Shown here in pieces: positions 2,131-7,796 of a DNA stretch of 51,249 nt. Below the pieces are notes generated by a model that made no database searches, was not told the DNA's origin, and saw nothing but the letters and a program-made list of their open reading frames with translations. Position 1 is the first letter of the stretch. The number at the start of each line of letters is the position of its first letter. Source of the stretch: an uncultured Bacteroidota bacterium (GTDB lineage Bacteria > Bacteroidota > Bacteroidia > Bacteroidales > VadinHA17); contig CALMJY010000018.1 of the NCBI GenBank assembly GCA_937864815.1, positions 1 through 51,249 of the forward strand. Direction: 5' to 3'. The position numbers were made by a program, and so were the translations under genes.

Positions 2131-3540
2131 ATGAGCAATGCGATTAAACCCCACCCTCTGGTAAACTCAACGGAACCAAATCTTCTTCATGAAACATTCG
2201 ATTACAGTCTTCCTCCAAAGATAAAATTCGATGGGCCTATTATTGAATATATAGACGGAAAATCTGTAGAATTTGATACCAAATCTCTCATAAAGAGAGA
2301 TATTTTCATAACAGATACAACTTTCAGGGATGGGCAGCAATCACGTCCGCCATATTCTGTGGAACAGATGGTTAGGATTTATGATTTATTGTCTAAACTT
2401 GGCGGGCCAAACGGTGTTATACGCCAGACGGAGTTTTTTCTATATACAAAAAATGACAGGGATGCACTTGACAAATGCAGAAGTCTTGGGCACAAATATC
2501 CAGAATGTACAGGATGGATAAGAGCTAACAAAGGCGATTTCCGCTTAGTGCGGGAGGCAGGTCTAAAAGAAACAGGAATGCTTACAAGCTGTTCTGACTT
2601 TCACATATTTCACAAGCTTAAGTTTAAGGACAGAAAGGAGTGCATGGATTCTTATTGTGAGGTTGTTGAGGCTGCTTTTGAGGCTGGTGTCAGGCCCAGA
2701 TGTCACCTTGAAGATATAACGAGAGCTGATATCGAAGGATTTGTTCTTCCGTTTGCCGAGAGGCTTATGAGAATGAGTGAACAGGTACCTGAAGAGTTAT
2801 CAGCAAAAATCAGGCTTTGTGATACAATGGGTTTTGGAATAAGTTATCCCGGAGTTGAATTACCAAGAAGTATTCCAAAGCTGATATATAAACTCAATAA
2901 AGAATGTGGCGTCCCAAGCAACAGGCTTGAATGGCATGGACATAATGATTTTCACAAGGTCCTGATCAACGGGGGTACTGCATGGCTTTACGGATGCGAT
3001 GCTCTGAATACTACATTATTCGGACTTGGAGAGAGAACAGGTAATCCACCTCTTGAAGGAGCAATAATTGAATATATTTCAATTAAAGGAGAAATGTGCG
3101 ATATTGATACTACAATGATTACAGCAATTGCTGAATATATGGATTCTATTGGAGTAACAATAGCAGAAAACTATCCATTCGTTGGGAAACATTTCAACAC
3201 CACACGTGCAGGAATTCATGCAGGAGGTCTGAGACAATCGGAGCAGATCTATAATATATTCGATACTTCAAAGCTGCTTAGCAGGTCACCCAGGGTAGCT
3301 ATTACAGACAAGAGCGGAGTTGATGGCATCTCCATATGGGTTAATGAGTATTTTGGACTTAAAGGTGATGACAGGATCAGCAAGATTAAGGTGCACAGGG
3401 TTGCCCAGTGGGTAATGGATCAGTATGAAAAGGAAGGCCGTCTTTCAACTATTACAGATGAAGAACTAGAATCAAAAGTCAAAGAATATATGCCCGATTT
3501 TTGTACAAGGTACAATGGTAGTCTGAAGAATCTGAAGTAG
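2131..3540 (+). CDS. Isopropylmalate/homocitrate synthase-superfamily condensing enzyme (DRE-TIM metallolyase)
   Basis: A 469-residue HMGL-like TIM-barrel enzyme. DTTFRDGQQ at residues 62-70 supplies the metal-binding Asp and catalytic Arg of the superfamily. WHGHND holds the metal-binding His269 and His271, and AGIHAGG near His363 corresponds to the SGIHQDG region of Claisen-type members. That region separates condensing enzymes (acetyl-CoA plus 2-oxo acid) from HMG-CoA lyases. The ATG at 2131 is preferred over an in-frame TTG at 2125 because AAAGGA lies just upstream. The ~55-residue N-terminal extension before the barrel and the absence of a long LeuA-type regulatory C-terminus set it apart from LeuA. 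No other leu or lys genes are nearby. Instead it heads a same-strand run with an acyl carrier protein, a glucosamine-6-phosphate deaminase and a DUF4954 protein. The true 2-oxo acid substrate cannot be read from sequence. Confidence 0.8.
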   Translation: MSNAIKPHPLVNSTEPNLLHETFDYSLPPKIKFDGPIIEYIDGKSVEFDTKSLIKRDIFITDTTFRDGQQSRPPYSVEQMVRIYDLLSKLGGPNGVIRQTEFFLYTKNDRDALDKCRSLGHKYPECTGWIRANKGDFRLVREAGLKETGMLTSCSDFHIFHKLKFKDRKECMDSYCEVVEAAFEAGVRPRCHLEDITRADIEGFVLPFAERLMRMSEQVPEELSAKIRLCDTMGFGISYPGVELPRSIPKLIYKLNKECGVPSNRLEWHGHNDFHKVLINGGTAWLYGCDALNTTLFGLGERTGNPPLEGAIIEYISIKGEMCDIDTTMITAIAEYMDSIGVTIAENYPFVGKHFNTTRAGIHAGGLRQSEQIYNIFDTSKLLSRSPRVAITDKSGVDGISIWVNEYFGLKGDDRISKIKVHRVAQWVMDQYEKEGRLSTITDEELESKVKEYMPDFCTRYNGSLKNLK

Positions 3541-3615
3541 GAAAGAAAATTGAAGCAGATATTAATTACTTTCAGTATATATTATTTAAACATCATTTAA
3601 CCAAGAAATTTAAAT

Positions 3616-3855
3616 ATGAATAGAGAAGAAGTAAATAACAGGGTAAAAAAAGTAATAGCAGCAGTACTTGAAAAGAATGTATCTGATATAAACGATGGTG
3701 CAAATTTTGTTACTGACCTGGGTGCATCATCAATACAAAGTATAAGACTAGTTGCAGGATTCGAAGAAGAGTTCAGCATTGAGATGGATGAAGAGAAGTC
3801 GTTGCAGGTTCAAACTGTTTCCGGAGCTGTTGATTTCATCAGTGCCTATCTGTAA
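3616..3855 (+). CDS. Acyl carrier protein, stand-alone
   Basis: A 79-residue acidic four-helix protein. LGASSIQSIRL aligns with the LGADSLDTVEL region of ACPs. The second Ser, at the phosphopantetheine site, is kept, while the preceding Asp is replaced by Ser and the following Leu by Ile. The variant site suggests a dedicated carrier rather than the housekeeping AcpP of fatty-acid synthesis; that is inference, and no fab genes are near. It starts with ATG 75 bp after the condensing enzyme and lies 126 bp before the deaminase. Family recognition is firm; its cargo is unknown. Confidence 0.85.
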   Translation: MNREEVNNRVKKVIAAVLEKNVSDINDGANFVTDLGASSIQSIRLVAGFEEEFSIEMDEEKSLQVQTVSGAVDFISAYL

Positions 3856-3981
3856 CTTAATTATACTTTAGTTTCTGAATATGCTGCCATGGGAGCATGC
3901 CGTATGTTTGTATTCTGATAACAGGCATAGGCTTTCCTGAATTTGAGAAATACAAATACTAACTTTTGAAATTTTATATCT

Positions 3982-4785
3982 ATGAGAATTATTATCAAAA
4001 AAGATCCGGGTGAAGTAGGCGATTGGGTTACAACTTATGTAATTGACAAAATAAAAAAGGCAAATCCCACAAAGCAAAAACCTTTTATTCTTGGTTTGCC
4101 AACTGGATCATCTCCACTGCCGGTTTACAGAGAACTTATTAAAAGGCACAAGTCAGGTAAGATATCCTTTAAAAATGTTGTTACATTCAACATGGATGAA
4201 TATGTGGGTCTTCCAGACAATCATAAGGAGAGCTATCATTATTTCATGTATGATAATCTGTTCAACCATATTGATATACCAAAGGAGAATATAAATATTC
4301 TTAACGGGAATTCAAAAAATCTTGAAAAAGAATGCACTGAATATGAGAAGAAAATCAAACACTACGGAGGCATAGATCTTTTTCTTGGAGGAATCGGGCC
4401 TGATGGTCACATTGCCTTTAATGAGCCAGGATCTTCACTCAGATCAAGGACAAGGATTAAAACACTTAGTTATGATACAATCCTGGCAAACTCAAGGTTT
4501 TTCGACGGTGATATAAAGAAAGTGCCAACCCAGGCTCTCACTGTGGGTGTAGGTACTGTAATGGATGCCAAGGAGGTTCTTATCATAATTACAGGTTTCA
4601 ACAAAGCCCGTGCAGTCAGAGAAGCAGTTGAGGGAGGTATAAGCCATATGTGGACTGTTTCAATGTTGCAGATGCATCCGAAGGCAATTTTCGTGTGTGA
4701 TGAACCTGCAACCATGGAACTTCAGGTTGAAACAGTAAAATATTTTAATAATCTGGAGGGTGTAAATGAACATACGCTTCCTTAA
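3982..4785 (+). CDS. nagB: Glucosamine-6-phosphate deaminase
   Basis: A 267-residue protein, matching the usual ~266 of NagB. It converts glucosamine-6-phosphate to fructose-6-phosphate and ammonia. Visible signatures are the sugar-phosphate loop GLPTGSSP, the MDEYVGLP segment with the proton-transfer Asp, and the catalytic [17 protein letters not shown] containing the Asp-Gly-His and the downstream Glu. All key residues are present, so it should be active. It is cytoplasmic. What is unusual is the setting: no nagA or transporter lies beside it, and it sits between an ACP and a DUF4954 protein, 18 bp from the latter. In this context it may work in the amination direction or supply an amino-sugar precursor, which is inference. 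Confidence 0.9.
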
Positions 4786-4803
4786 TAAATCTATTTTTTA
4801 AAT

Positions 4804-6789
4804 ATGTCTTACAGACCATTGACAGAAAAGGAAATCAATTTATTGGTTTCTCAGGGCTGTATTTCGGAAGGCTGGAAAGAAATATCAGTCCATAAAGATT
4901 TCACCACAACAAATATTATTAATACCCGATTTGAAGGTAAAATAAAGCTTGGAGTCATTTCACGTACAATTTCTGATGTTGAAGGAATTACAAGAAAATG
5001 CGGAATTTACAATAGCTATATCCGTAATTGTGAGATTTCTGATAATGTGTGTATTAGCAATGTTAAAAACCTGGCAAACTACTCTGTTGGCGATCATGTG
5101 TTAATTGAAAATGTAGGATCGCTGGTTACTGACAGTGAAACAACCTTTGGAAATGGGATTGAGGTTGATTCTCTGAATGAAGGCGGAGGAAGAGGATTGC
5201 CAATTTTTGACAAGCTGACCTCCCAGGTGGCGTATATGGCTGTTTTATATCGTCATGATAAAGAATTTACCTCCAGACTCATGGATATGATTGGGGAATA
5301 TACCAATTCGAAACGATCATCAATGGGAAGGATTGATTCATATGCAAGCATACGAGATACACTGATAATAAGGGATGTTTCAATAGGATCCTATACTGTA
5401 ATTTCCGGTTCATCCCTTCTTGAAAATGGAACTATAGTAAGTTGCAAGGATGCCCAGACCTTTATAGGCGAGGGAGTTATTGCAAGAAAGTTCATTATTC
5501 TGTCAGGATCAGTAGTTGACGGGAATGCTCTAATTGAAAAGACTTTTGTAGGACAGGGTGTAAAAATCGGTAAGCAATTTTCTTCAGAAAACTCATTATT
5601 CTTTGCGAACAGTGAGGCATTTCACGGGGAGGGATGCAGCATATTTGCAGGTCCATATACCGTAAGTCACCATAAATCAACTCTGCTGATTGCTTGTCTC
5701 TTTTCGTTTTATAATGCTGGCAGCGGAACAAACCAGAGTAATCACATGTATAAACTAGGACCTGTTCATCAGGGAATCCTTGAACGTGGTTCGAAAACCG
5801 GATCTTTTGCCTACTTGTTATTACCCTGCAGAATTGGATCATATTCAGTTGTTATGGGGAAGCATTATACCAATTTTGACTCCTCAGATTTTCCTTTTTC
5901 GTATATAACAGAAGAAAAAGGTAAAAGCGAACTTACTCCTGCAATGAATATTTTCACTGTAGGTACCCGCAGAGATAGTGAGAAATGGTCATTAAGAGAC
6001 AGAAGAAAAGATCCGGAAAAACTTGATTTGATCCACTTTGATTTGTATAATCCGTATATAGTCGGCAAAATTTTGAATGGCATTGGTATACTTAATGAAC
6101 TTGCTGATAAGACTCCTAAAACACAGGATTTTATAAACCATAAAGGGATTAATATACATCGACTTCTTCTGAAGACTTCGAGGAAGTATTATGAGATGGC
6201 ATTAAAATCATATTTAGGAAATGAAATAATTAAGCGATTGGGCAAAATTGATATCATTACATCAGCCCATGACCTCAGGGAAAGATTACGGGCAGGAGGA
6301 ACAGATGGAATCGACAGGTGGGTTGATGTCTGCGGTATGTTTGCCCCTGCTTCAAAGATAGAAACAATTATAAACGATGTCAGATCAGGAAAAATAGGTT
6401 CAATAAAGGGTTTAACAGAGAGGTTAAAAGAAGTCTATCAAAACTATGAGCAATATTCATGGGAGTGGTGTTCAGATCTTATCAACAGGCATACAGGTAT
6501 GAGTTTTGATGATATTACGACGGATAAAATTATTGAAATATTAGAGGACTGGAAACTTAACAGGGTAAAACTTAACAATATGATACTCAAAGATGCTGAG
6601 AAGGATTTTGATGAGAGCACTAGACTGGGATTCGGTATCGATGGGAATTCAGATATAAGGGATAAGGACTTTCATGCAGTCCGCGGAGAATATCATGAAA
6701 ATAAATTCATAATTGGCTTACAGAAGGAAACTGCAGCAATCGAAAAAACTGCTGACATGGTCATATCATTTCTCAAAAAACTTACTTAA
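4804..6789 (+). CDS. DUF4954-family protein with left-handed beta-helix-like repeats
   Basis: A 661-residue protein of the DUF4954 type found in Bacteroidota and some other phyla; its function is not established. Residues ~55-115 and ~180-265 show short repeats with small or hydrophobic residues at fixed spacing (IYNSYIRNCEISDNVCISN; LIIRDVSIGSYTVISGSS). This resembles the hexapeptide coils of GlmU and LpxA-type sugar acyltransferases. A conserved-looking central block contains CSIFAGPYTVSHHKSTLLIA and GPVHQGILERGSKTGS. The C-terminal ~230 residues are helical, with no signal peptide or membrane segment, so it is cytoplasmic. LpxA-like enzymes use acyl-ACP donors, which makes the adjacent ACP suggestive. 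It is the last gene of the cluster and converges on the ROK kinase gene. Confidence 0.75.
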   Translation: MSYRPLTEKEINLLVSQGCISEGWKEISVHKDFTTTNIINTRFEGKIKLGVISRTISDVEGITRKCGIYNSYIRNCEISDNVCISNVKNLANYSVGDHVLIENVGSLVTDSETTFGNGIEVDSLNEGGGRGLPIFDKLTSQVAYMAVLYRHDKEFTSRLMDMIGEYTNSKRSSMGRIDSYASIRDTLIIRDVSIGSYTVISGSSLLENGTIVSCKDAQTFIGEGVIARKFIILSGSVVDGNALIEKTFVGQGVKIGKQFSSENSLFFANSEAFHGEGCSIFAGPYTVSHHKSTLLIACLFSFYNAGSGTNQSNHMYKLGPVHQGILERGSKTGSFAYLLLPCRIGSYSVVMGKHYTNFDSSDFPFSYITEEKGKSELTPAMNIFTVGTRRDSEKWSLRDRRKDPEKLDLIHFDLYNPYIVGKILNGIGILNELADKTPKTQDFINHKGINIHRLLLKTSRKYYEMALKSYLGNEIIKRLGKIDIITSAHDLRERLRAGGTDGIDRWVDVCGMFAPASKIETIINDVRSGKIGSIKGLTERLKEVYQNYEQYSWEWCSDLINRHTGMSFDDITTDKIIEILEDWKLNRVKLNNMILKDAEKDFDESTRLGFGIDGNSDIRDKDFHAVRGEYHENKFIIGLQKETAAIEKTADMVISFLKKLT

Positions 6790-6827: not shown

Positions 6828-7796
6828 TTATCCTTTTACAGACCATACCAAAGAACTCGCTCCAAGAACTGCAGCATTCTGAGTGCTCAGTTCTGAAGCA
6901 AGTAATTTAACTTTTCCTTTATAAATACTTAGCAGGTTTTCTTCCATATATTCCTTTGCGGGCTCGAAGATTAGATCTTTTGCAAGGGCAAGGCCGCCAA
7001 AAAGAAAAATAGCCTCTGGATTTGTATGTGCTACCACATCGGCAAGCTTAAAACCAAGCATGCTGCCTGTATGCCTGAATGCTCTTTTGGCAAGGTAATC
7101 TCCTCTCACAGCAGCATCATGAATCATTTCCGCATCAAGCTCTTCAAAGCTATATTTTCTAAGTTCGCTGGGTTGAGTGCTGTCAGCCATAATTTTAAGC
7201 AAGGATCGTTTAAGTCCGGTTGCTGAAACATATGTTTCAAGACATCCTTTTCTCCCACAACCACATTCTCTGTTGGAAGGACCCGGACGAATTGCTGTAT
7301 GGCCTATTTCACCCGCAAAACCATCATTTCCATATACAAGCTTGCCATCTATTACAAATCCGCTGCCAAGGCCGGTTCCAAGAGTTATCACTACGAAGTT
7401 CTTCATGTCTTTGGCCCCGCCGTATATCATCTCACCAACTGCAGCTGCATTAGCATCATTGGTTACAATTACAGGCAGCTTGGTATGTCTGTTAAAAACG
7501 TCTGAAATTGGTACAATACCTTTCCATGGCAAACCAGCTGCATGTTCAATGGTTCCTTTATTTATATTGCCCATTGGAGCCCCGATACCATAACCAATAA
7601 TATTTATTCCATTTCCTATTTGCTTTGCAGTTACCATTATCTTTTCATATAAGGCTGCAACGAAAACCTCAATTTCATCGTAATGTGTAGTTTTAATCTT
7701 GTCTTCACCAAGAATATTGCCTTGTCTGTCAACAAAACCGAAAACGGTATTTGTTCCACCTAAGTCAATACCAACAGCCACAGATTTTTTTGTCAT
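6828..7796 (-). CDS. ROK-family sugar kinase (glucokinase-like)
   Basis: A 322-residue protein. The N-terminal phosphate loop VGIDLGGTNTVFGFVD, the second phosphate motif VVITLGTGLGSGFVIDG, GEIGHTAIRP and the zinc-binding CGCGRKGCLETY are the standard ROK signatures. No N-terminal helix-turn-helix is present, so it is an enzyme rather than a NagC/XylR-type repressor. ROK kinases phosphorylate glucose, N-acetylglucosamine, N-acetylmannosamine or fructose with ATP; the sequence alone does not choose. The convergent neighbour is the cluster with glucosamine-6-phosphate deaminase, so an amino sugar is plausible but unproven. The ATG at 7796 gives the expected N-terminus. Confidence 0.85.
   Translation of the reverse strand: MTKKSVAVGIDLGGTNTVFGFVDRQGNILGEDKIKTTHYDEIEVFVAALYEKIMVTAKQIGNGINIIGYGIGAPMGNINKGTIEHAAGLPWKGIVPISDVFNRHTKLPVIVTNDANAAAVGEMIYGGAKDMKNFVVITLGTGLGSGFVIDGKLVYGNDGFAGEIGHTAIRPGPSNRECGCGRKGCLETYVSATGLKRSLLKIMADSTQPSELRKYSFEELDAEMIHDAAVRGDYLAKRAFRHTGSMLGFKLADVVAHTNPEAIFLFGGLALAKDLIFEPAKEYMEENLLSIYKGKVKLLASELSTQNAAVLGASSLVWSVKG

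Follow-up and report, generated by a model that had tools for sequence, protein, structure and literature searches.

UDP-GlcNAc is required for peptidoglycan and lipid A, and LpxA and LpxD are the acyl-ACP-dependent acyltransferases of lipid A. Giardia makes hexosamines independently of GlmS through a glucosamine-6-phosphate (GlcN-6-P) isomerase, with acetylation by a GNAT-type enzyme. NagB is classically catabolic. A survey of 12,939 genomes reports that the UDP-GlcNAc pathway is absent from all organisms of Spirochaetes and of the FCB group, to which Bacteroidetes belong, describes loss of GlmS or GlmU in several of these organisms, and proposes loss or uptake from the surroundings (PMC7725333).

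We analyzed a 51,249-nucleotide stretch of DNA (the window) from an uncultured Bacteroidota bacterium of the Bacteroidales lineage VadinHA17 (GCA_937864815.1, contig CALMJY010000018.1). The original prediction described four same-strand genes in this window, which the open reading frames at 2131-6789 and their family profile matches confirmed. The features are:

2131-3540, + strand: HMGL-like (Claisen-type) condensing enzyme (PF00682, 94.6 bits; alternative TTG start at 2125)
3616-3855, + strand: acyl carrier protein, ACP (PP-binding, PF00550, 42.3 bits)
3982-4785, + strand: NagB, glucosamine-6-phosphate deaminase/isomerase (TIGR00502, 412.6 bits; cut-off 236.9)
4804-6789, + strand: DUF4954 + DUF6819 protein (PF16314, 602 bits; PF20683, 166 bits)
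6828-7796, - strand: ROK-family sugar kinase, convergent to the four-gene cluster

The gaps within the cluster are 75, 126 and 18 bases. No leu, lys or further nag gene adjoined it in the open reading frame list and family profiles, as had been noted for the condensing enzyme (away from leu and lys genes) and for NagB (without nag partners). Rfam gave no match above gathering scores in the window.

A lack of recurrent linkage of DUF4954 to the ACP and the condensing enzyme had been named beforehand as a result that would refute the pathway idea. The idea survived this test, with ACP, condensing enzyme, NagB and DUF4954 co-occurring across phyla. For the condensing enzyme, 23 close relatives (56-78% identity; several phyla) were compared: 20 had the same type of ACP in the cluster, immediately adjacent in 19; in the remaining three loci, one flank ends at a contig end. 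NagB was present in 12 and DUF4954 in 11 of these 23 loci. An ADP-forming acyl-CoA synthetase (ACD) replaces the condensing enzyme in clusters of other Bacteroidota, and a GlmU-like protein with hexapeptide repeats precedes the ACP in eight planctomycete loci. In the DUF4954 tree, every one of the 20 module-linked rows fell, together with the window protein, into one clade of 22 rows (support 98). Because the linkage recurs in other phyla, the cluster is more than chance, and accident or mis-annotation was ruled out. We found no paper joining NagB, ACP and isopropylmalate synthase in one gene cluster. Two clusters (L039 and L075) also carried an acetate-kinase-like gene (named by eye), and NagB-like proteins of 730-785 aa were seen near L039, L042, L075 and L128.

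Retrieval by DUF4954 alone gave 59 loci. GlmS lay within 4 kb in 11 of these, NagB in 10 and either in 20; the other 39 had neither within that distance. An HflX-like GTPase was near DUF4954 in 12 of the 59.

The ACP has 79 residues and the phosphopantetheine Ser site GASS; among 25 relatives aligned with it, this site reads GAES in 17 and GADS in 8. The attachment Ser was retained in all 26 aligned ACPs, in line with the predicted variant site. Against TIGR00517, the model for general ACPs, the score was below cut-off (57.5 vs 70.45 bits). NagB carries FNMDEYVGL and DGHIAFNEP, motifs that we take to be catalytic (FNMDEY and DGHIAFNEP).

The condensing enzyme contains TTFRDGQQ and HGHND, read from the sequence; the original prediction had described its catalytic and metal residues as kept. 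Eighteen NCBIfam families matched it, none above cut-off (best match NifV, 123.4 bits vs 462.9), and we rejected leuA, nifV and cimA (2-isopropylmalate, homocitrate and citramalate synthase) identities on these scores. The window genome has leu-like genes on contig C85 (named by eye). A sister group at 50-55% identity was identified as Re-citrate-synthase-like from its context and its taxa rather than from a match to a characterised enzyme. The condensing enzyme and this sister group have 121 conserved positions in common (one residue in >95% of 82 aligned HMGL sequences). By a 90% criterion, the close clade and its sister group differed at residues 365 and 398 only. Residue 365, near the conserved His363, was G in 23 of 24 close-clade sequences and D in 58 of 58 sister-group sequences; L050 retains D. 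Aconitase- and/or isocitrate-dehydrogenase-like genes were found at seven of the 58 sister-group loci (within available flanks) and at none of the 23 close-clade loci, some of which are on short contigs. The condensing enzyme is nearest to the Re-citrate-synthase-like sister group and belongs to an ACP-linked clade.

The predicted fold of the DUF4954 protein was the second refutation test named in the original prediction. The LbH_EIF2B profile matched all 12 aligned DUF4954 members (best E 4.3e-8), including the window protein at E 3.5e-7 and 30.6 bits, under the Pfam cut-off of 54. Weak matches were also seen to Hexapep_GlmU (2 of 12 members; best E 7.3e-4) and to the GlmU chain 2v0h (E 0.12), and profile comparison with the GlmU-like proteins gave 18.6% probability. 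Pfam found no nucleotidyltransferase domain in the window protein (DUF4954, DUF6819 and weak LbH/hexapeptide matches only), and no NCBIfam family matched it at E ≤ 0.001, neither TIGR01173 nor TIGR03991. Two AlphaFold models, from 12 sequences each, were of low confidence (mean pLDDT 68.3 and 43.2), and with these models Foldseek gave no match in the PDB at E ≤ 0.001. No DUF4954 relatives were found on viral contigs by tblastn (34 pattern matches). Judged from the profiles, DUF4954 is probably a left-handed beta-helix (LbH-type) protein.

Gene content was compared across 149 Bacteroidales genomes. DUF4954 alone was found in 32, the Bacteroidota-type GlmU (TIGR03991) alone in 94, both in 16 and neither in seven (Fisher p 3.4e-14 for complementarity, not corrected for kinship). 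TIGR03991 was thus present in 110 genomes; 39 lacked it, and 32 of these carried DUF4954. Canonical GlmU (TIGR01173) was above cut-off in none of 22 DUF4954-positive genomes and in none of 11 whose cluster contains DUF4954. The window genome matched neither GlmS nor GlmU in profile searches (two GlmU models). GlmS was also without a match in its congener G406 and, among six genomes tested from other loci whose cluster includes DUF4954, in four. Absence from a draft genome may reflect assembly loss. Eight genomes had only the uridylyltransferase half of GlmU (G120, G078, G243, G200, G449, G451, G453 and G456).

Despite the cluster or its NagB-DUF4954 part, GlmS was retained in G302, G419, G338, G267, G078, G120, G200, G216, G243, G449 and G451, and alt-GlmU in G302, G419, G338, G267, G120, G200, G216, G243, G449, G453 and G456. 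The cluster is therefore not a simple replacement in these genomes. The control Bacteroides ihuae matched DUF4954 (one of two matching controls, which one unspecified, was above cut-off). It was above the GlmS cut-off, like all 14 controls, and was not among the controls matching TIGR01173 (E ≤ 1e-20) or TIGR03991 (E ≤ 1e-30). A nucleotidyltransferase-like frame on contig C308 (986 aa from its start; GlmU model, 101.5 bits) was rejected as GlmU because the match spans model positions 4-239 only. Eukaryote-type UAP1 (UDPGP) was rejected as the pyrophosphorylase: 22 of 24 genomes had no match, and the two matches were short stretches of 1,113- and 1,116-aa frames. No pyrophosphorylase, and no UDPGP match, was found in the window genome.

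With slightly better than even confidence, we favor the four-gene cluster as a hexosamine module in which DUF4954 is a glucosamine-phosphate N-acyltransferase, probably N-acetylating, supplied by NagB and with the ACP as acyl carrier. For this module we infer the reactions, the sense in which they run, the identity of the acyl group, direct donation by the ACP and what the HMGL-type enzyme does. NagB would form GlcN-6-P; in the window genome, which has no GlmS match, it would use fructose-6-phosphate and ammonia. DUF4954 would N-acylate glucosamine phosphate and would thereby stand in for the acetyltransferase domain of the absent GlmU. The acyl group, most likely acetyl, would be bound to the dedicated ACP, and the HMGL-type enzyme, or ACD in relatives, would act on the acyl thioester. 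The predicted role of DUF4954 as a beta-helix amino-sugar acyltransferase is supported by weak GlmU- and eIF2B-type helix profile matches, the GlmS and NagB neighbours, and the complementarity with GlmU. We regard the original prediction as partly supported; in place of its unusual acyl group, plain acetyl is the more economical choice where GlmU is absent. Acetyl supply does not explain the citrate-synthase-like enzyme of the cluster.

An alternative is an unusual-acyl pathway, close to the original prediction, in which HMGL would condense acetyl-ACP (or acetyl-CoA) with oxaloacetate to citryl-ACP, ACD would make citryl-ACP from citrate and ATP, and DUF4954 would acylate glucosamine phosphate with citryl. 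Such a pathway accounts for the dedicated ACP and for the interchange of HMGL and ACD at one cluster place. It is consistent with conserved positions near-identical to those of the sister group, with the D-to-G change at 365 near His363, and with ACP scores under general cut-offs. However, L050 keeps the D, and two models found no further GlmU-type acetyltransferase in the window genome, so DUF4954 there should make GlcNAc. We consider citryl transfer unlikely. A plain Re-citrate synthase, adjacent to ACP, NagB and DUF4954 for regulatory or accidental reasons, is very improbable: the 50-55% identity of the sister group and the TCA-type genes at seven of its 58 loci point that way, but such genes were at none of the 23 close-clade loci (some contigs short) and the ACP is in the cluster of 20.

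The module could also run in the opposite sense, with DUF4954 transferring acetyl from GlcNAc-P to the ACP, NagB deaminating GlcN-6-P, and HMGL, ACD or acetate kinase removing the acetyl thioester. The classical catabolic role of NagB, the acetate-kinase-like gene in the L039 and L075 clusters, the 730-785 aa NagB-like proteins near four loci, and the retention of GlmS and alt-GlmU in many cluster genomes are all consistent with salvage. Amide-to-thioester transfer followed by ATP synthesis via ACD should nevertheless be energetically uphill, and the genomes without GlmS (the window genome and four of the six examined at other loci) better match a biosynthetic need. We regard this catabolic direction as quite unlikely.

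Our data suggest that DUF4954 is a good candidate for the cell-wall-sugar enzyme seemingly lacking in many Bacteroidota. The unusual Bacteroidota GlmU (110 of 149 Bacteroidales genomes) probably accounts for part of the reported UDP-GlcNAc pathway gap. If the candidate role is true, DUF4954 would close the remaining part, being present in 32 of 39 Bacteroidales genomes that lack this GlmU. DUF4954 is listed in Treponema pallidum (WP_010882295.1; PMC6953169). Its presence there and in Bacteroides ihuae makes a documented missing-enzyme question testable in E. coli K-12 and laboratory Bacteroides. If true, the ACP branch would give carrier proteins a new part in sugar metabolism. More doubtful is a carrier-protein-based amino-sugar acylation system across several phyla, in which a citrate-synthase-like enzyme or ADP-forming synthetase would load an acyl group, possibly citryl, on the ACP, the new beta-helix family would transfer it to glucosamine phosphate, and an ACP-free branch of this family would supply the GlcN-P acetyltransferase that Bacteroidota and Spirochaetes are missing.

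Compared with known systems, DUF4954 shares with GlmU a weak beta-helix signal in sequence profiles, GlmS and NagB neighbours and phyletic complementarity. It differs in having no nucleotidyltransferase domain by Pfam and in its DUF6819 C-terminus, and its similarity to GlmU-like proteins is marginal. By description, the ACP gene and the beta-helix signal recall LpxA and LpxD, whereas the LpxA- and LpxD-like genes of the window genome lie elsewhere, on contig C342 (named by eye). The condensing enzyme shares TTFRDGQQ, HGHND and the 121 conserved positions with the Re-citrate-synthase-like sister group, but is ACP-linked, lacks TCA neighbours and is altered at residues 365 and 398. As in the Giardia-type route, a GlcN-6-P isomerase would form GlcN-6-P from fructose-6-phosphate and ammonia; in place of the GNAT-type enzyme, the window cluster has a probable beta-helix protein and an ACP.

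The four genes are as the original prediction described them, an HMGL-type condensing enzyme, an acyl carrier protein (ACP), NagB and a DUF4954 protein, as confirmed by open reading frames (ORFs) and family matches. Intergenic gaps are 75, 126 and 18 bases:

2131-3540, same strand as the other three, HMGL-type condensing enzyme
3616-3855, same strand as the other three, ACP of 79 residues
3982-4785, same strand as the other three, NagB
4804-6789, same strand as the other three, DUF4954+DUF6819 protein

The window is one entire contig of G000, a draft genome of 4.66 Mb in 348 contigs, estimated at 97% completeness. Convergent to the cluster is a ROK-family sugar kinase gene (6828-7796, minus strand; TIGR00744 202 bits, below the cut-off of 260), which could encode a GlcNAc or glucose kinase. 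Upstream, ~590 AT-rich bases (1535-2124) lack an ORF of at least 60 aa, and no Rfam match was found there.

When named genomes were scanned for the HMGL protein, 566 of 595 stretches encoded a relative, and the best 80 loci were kept. Among these, 23 close loci (L031-L051, L058, L075; 56-78% identity to the window HMGL) came from Planctomycetota, Gemmatimonadota, Latescibacterota, Bacteroidota, Ignavibacteriales, KSB1 and one further bacterium. The predicted linkage of condensing enzyme to ACP is real, as an ACP of the same type lies within the cluster in 20 of the 23 across several phyla, directly beside HMGL in 19 of them and, in L046, four genes off. In L031, L048 and L049 the ACP was not seen on the available side, and a contig end cuts the other. 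DUF4954 was found in 11 and NagB in 12 of the 23 loci. A GlmU-like protein (NTP_transf_4 match, one protein scanned) precedes the ACP in eight planctomycete loci. The remaining 57 loci (50-55% identity) had no ACP match; five carried weak stretches (25-27%) resembling ADP-forming acyl-CoA synthetase (ACD) and one an acetate-kinase-like gene. Among the matches listed, the nearest named relative of both window HMGL and DUF4954 is in Mariniphaga (L031), and on this basis the window genome is presumed to belong to Bacteroidota. At positions 2-712 of L036, upstream of GlmU-like, ACP and HMGL genes, lies a protein end with 22-24% identity to the C-terminal region (DUF6819) of DUF4954 proteins.

Five other Bacteroidota loci (L114, L118, L119, L120, L128) showed the order ACP, ACD, NagB, DUF4954, with an ACD of 707-716 aa (family match from one scanned protein); L155 reads ACP-ACD-DUF4954. 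Both HMGL and ACD occur in L046 and L036, and L154 pairs HMGL with a 923-aa ACD relative on the opposite strand. A quick-method tree of 71 DUF4954 proteins, with SH-aLRT as its only support measure and some long branches, placed the window protein in a 22-row clade (support 98) together with each of the 20 rows that have ACP, HMGL or ACD nearby; L129 (NagB only) and L156 (unlabelled) complete the clade. In this tree the HMGL-bearing window and L031 fall within ACD loci; one enzyme therefore seems to have taken the place of the other. Only G000 and G434, out of 149 genomes of the order, encode an HMGL relative at ~50% identity. The G434 gene adjoins an aconitase-like gene (named by eye) and an isocitrate-dehydrogenase (IDH)-family gene; none of the DUF4954 matches in the order comes from G434.

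Sequence comparison suggests a beta-helix fold for DUF4954. LbH_EIF2B matched all 12 aligned members (the window's match falls under the Pfam cut-off) and Hexapep_GlmU matched two. The best PDB profile match was eIF2B gamma (E 0.017), followed by GlmU (E 0.12) and two sugar-1-phosphate nucleotidylyltransferase chains (E 0.26, 0.27), none significant alone. When its profile was compared with that of the GlmU-like proteins from the clusters, the match had a probability of 18.6%. The AlphaFold model had a mean pLDDT of 68 (<50 in the conserved stretch 255-336) and that of the core alone 43; Foldseek with these low-confidence models returned nothing at E<=0.001. His 289, 290, 314, 322 and 354 are invariant in the 12 sequences and, by analogy with other LbH enzymes, are candidate catalytic residues.

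DUF4954 and the Bacteroidota-type GlmU (alt-GlmU, TIGR03991) were complementary in the order: 32 genomes had DUF4954 only, 94 alt-GlmU only, 16 both and seven, identified by elimination, neither (P = 3.4e-14, Fisher test treating genomes as independent, which they are not). Canonical GlmU (TIGR01173) over cut-off was found in none of 22 DUF4954-positive genomes tested, and alt-GlmU over cut-off was also not found in 10 of these, including G000 and its congener G406. In eleven further genomes, from other loci whose cluster includes DUF4954, no full canonical GlmU was found; alt-GlmU was over cut-off in three, weak and partial in two and not found in six. The uridylyltransferase half of GlmU was matched on its own in G120, G078, G243, G200, G449, G451, G453 and G456. 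No GlmS match was found in G000, G406 and G230, nor in G446, G447, G448 and G450 (genomes of L039, L042, L044 and L046); GlmS was present in G449 and G451 (L045, L075). Such absences are weaker in the named genomes because their completeness is not given. In the order, 14 of 149 genomes had no GlmS match at E<=1e-100: 9 of 48 with DUF4954 versus 5 of 101 without (lists compared by hand). GlmS matches were absent from both G436 and G323, of one genus; DUF4954 is present and alt-GlmU absent in G323, G436 apparently lacks both, and hexosamine synthesis may have been lost.

Within 4 kb of DUF4954, GlmS was present in 11 and NagB in 10 of 59 loci (20 together; 59 of 72 places fetched, the window's own left out). 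An ACP was counted in seven, or eight with L118, whose short ACP fell below the ORF limit. A divergent DUF4954 type also adjoins GlmS (L160-L163, L168). Two observations count against a glucosamine-phosphate role: 39 of 59 loci had neither GlmS nor NagB within 4 kb, and 12 share an HflX-like GTPase gene. In L113, L121, L139, L140 and L157, the HflX-like GTPase gene is followed by DUF4954 and then a close fumarase-family gene.

We consider it probable that DUF4954, taken by itself, is a GlcN-P N-acyltransferase. Most likely, NagB would convert Fru-6-P and NH3 to GlcN-6-P, DUF4954 would N-acylate this product, and the acyl group would be carried on the ACP, with HMGL or ACD acting on the thioester. 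That the ACP is the direct acyl donor is a more tentative proposal. With ATP, ACD could charge the carrier with acetate; an acetyl-supplying direction for HMGL is not obvious and is the weakest point of this mechanism. HMGL's role would be better accounted for by a rival that we hold less likely overall, in which it makes citryl-ACP and DUF4954 transfers that acyl group to glucosamine phosphate. An alignment of 82 HMGL sequences (24 close, 58 sister) had 121 positions >95% conserved over both groups, and only positions 365 and 398 split them at the 90% criterion. Position 365 is G in 23 of 24 close sequences (L050 keeps D) and D in 58 of 58 sister sequences; position 398 is D in 24 of 24 and A in 58 of 58. 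Aconitase and/or IDH neighbours occurred in 7 of 58 sister loci. We call the sister group Re-citrate-synthase-like, a tentative label given from gene context and taxa. Its taxa among the best 80 loci include Syntrophaceae and Brocadia, which we presume to be linked to Re-citrate synthase. The cluster NagB of Gemmatimonadota and Latescibacterota (L039 8300-9058, L040, L042, L043, L044) has NGH in place of DGH in a conserved motif; the RTRIK Lys found in most others is missing from it.

Pfam, in the version consulted (most recent models from 2025), still lists DUF4954 as a DUF, and no functional paper on it was found in a literature search that missed most subscription journals and preprints. 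PMC12016533 describes the Re-citrate synthase type as unrelated to Si-citrate synthase and as having been wrongly annotated as homocitrate or isopropylmalate synthase. The UDP-GlcNAc pathway is reported in PMC7725333 as not found in Bacteroidetes and Spirochaetes, and the gap that DUF4954 would fill is already in print.
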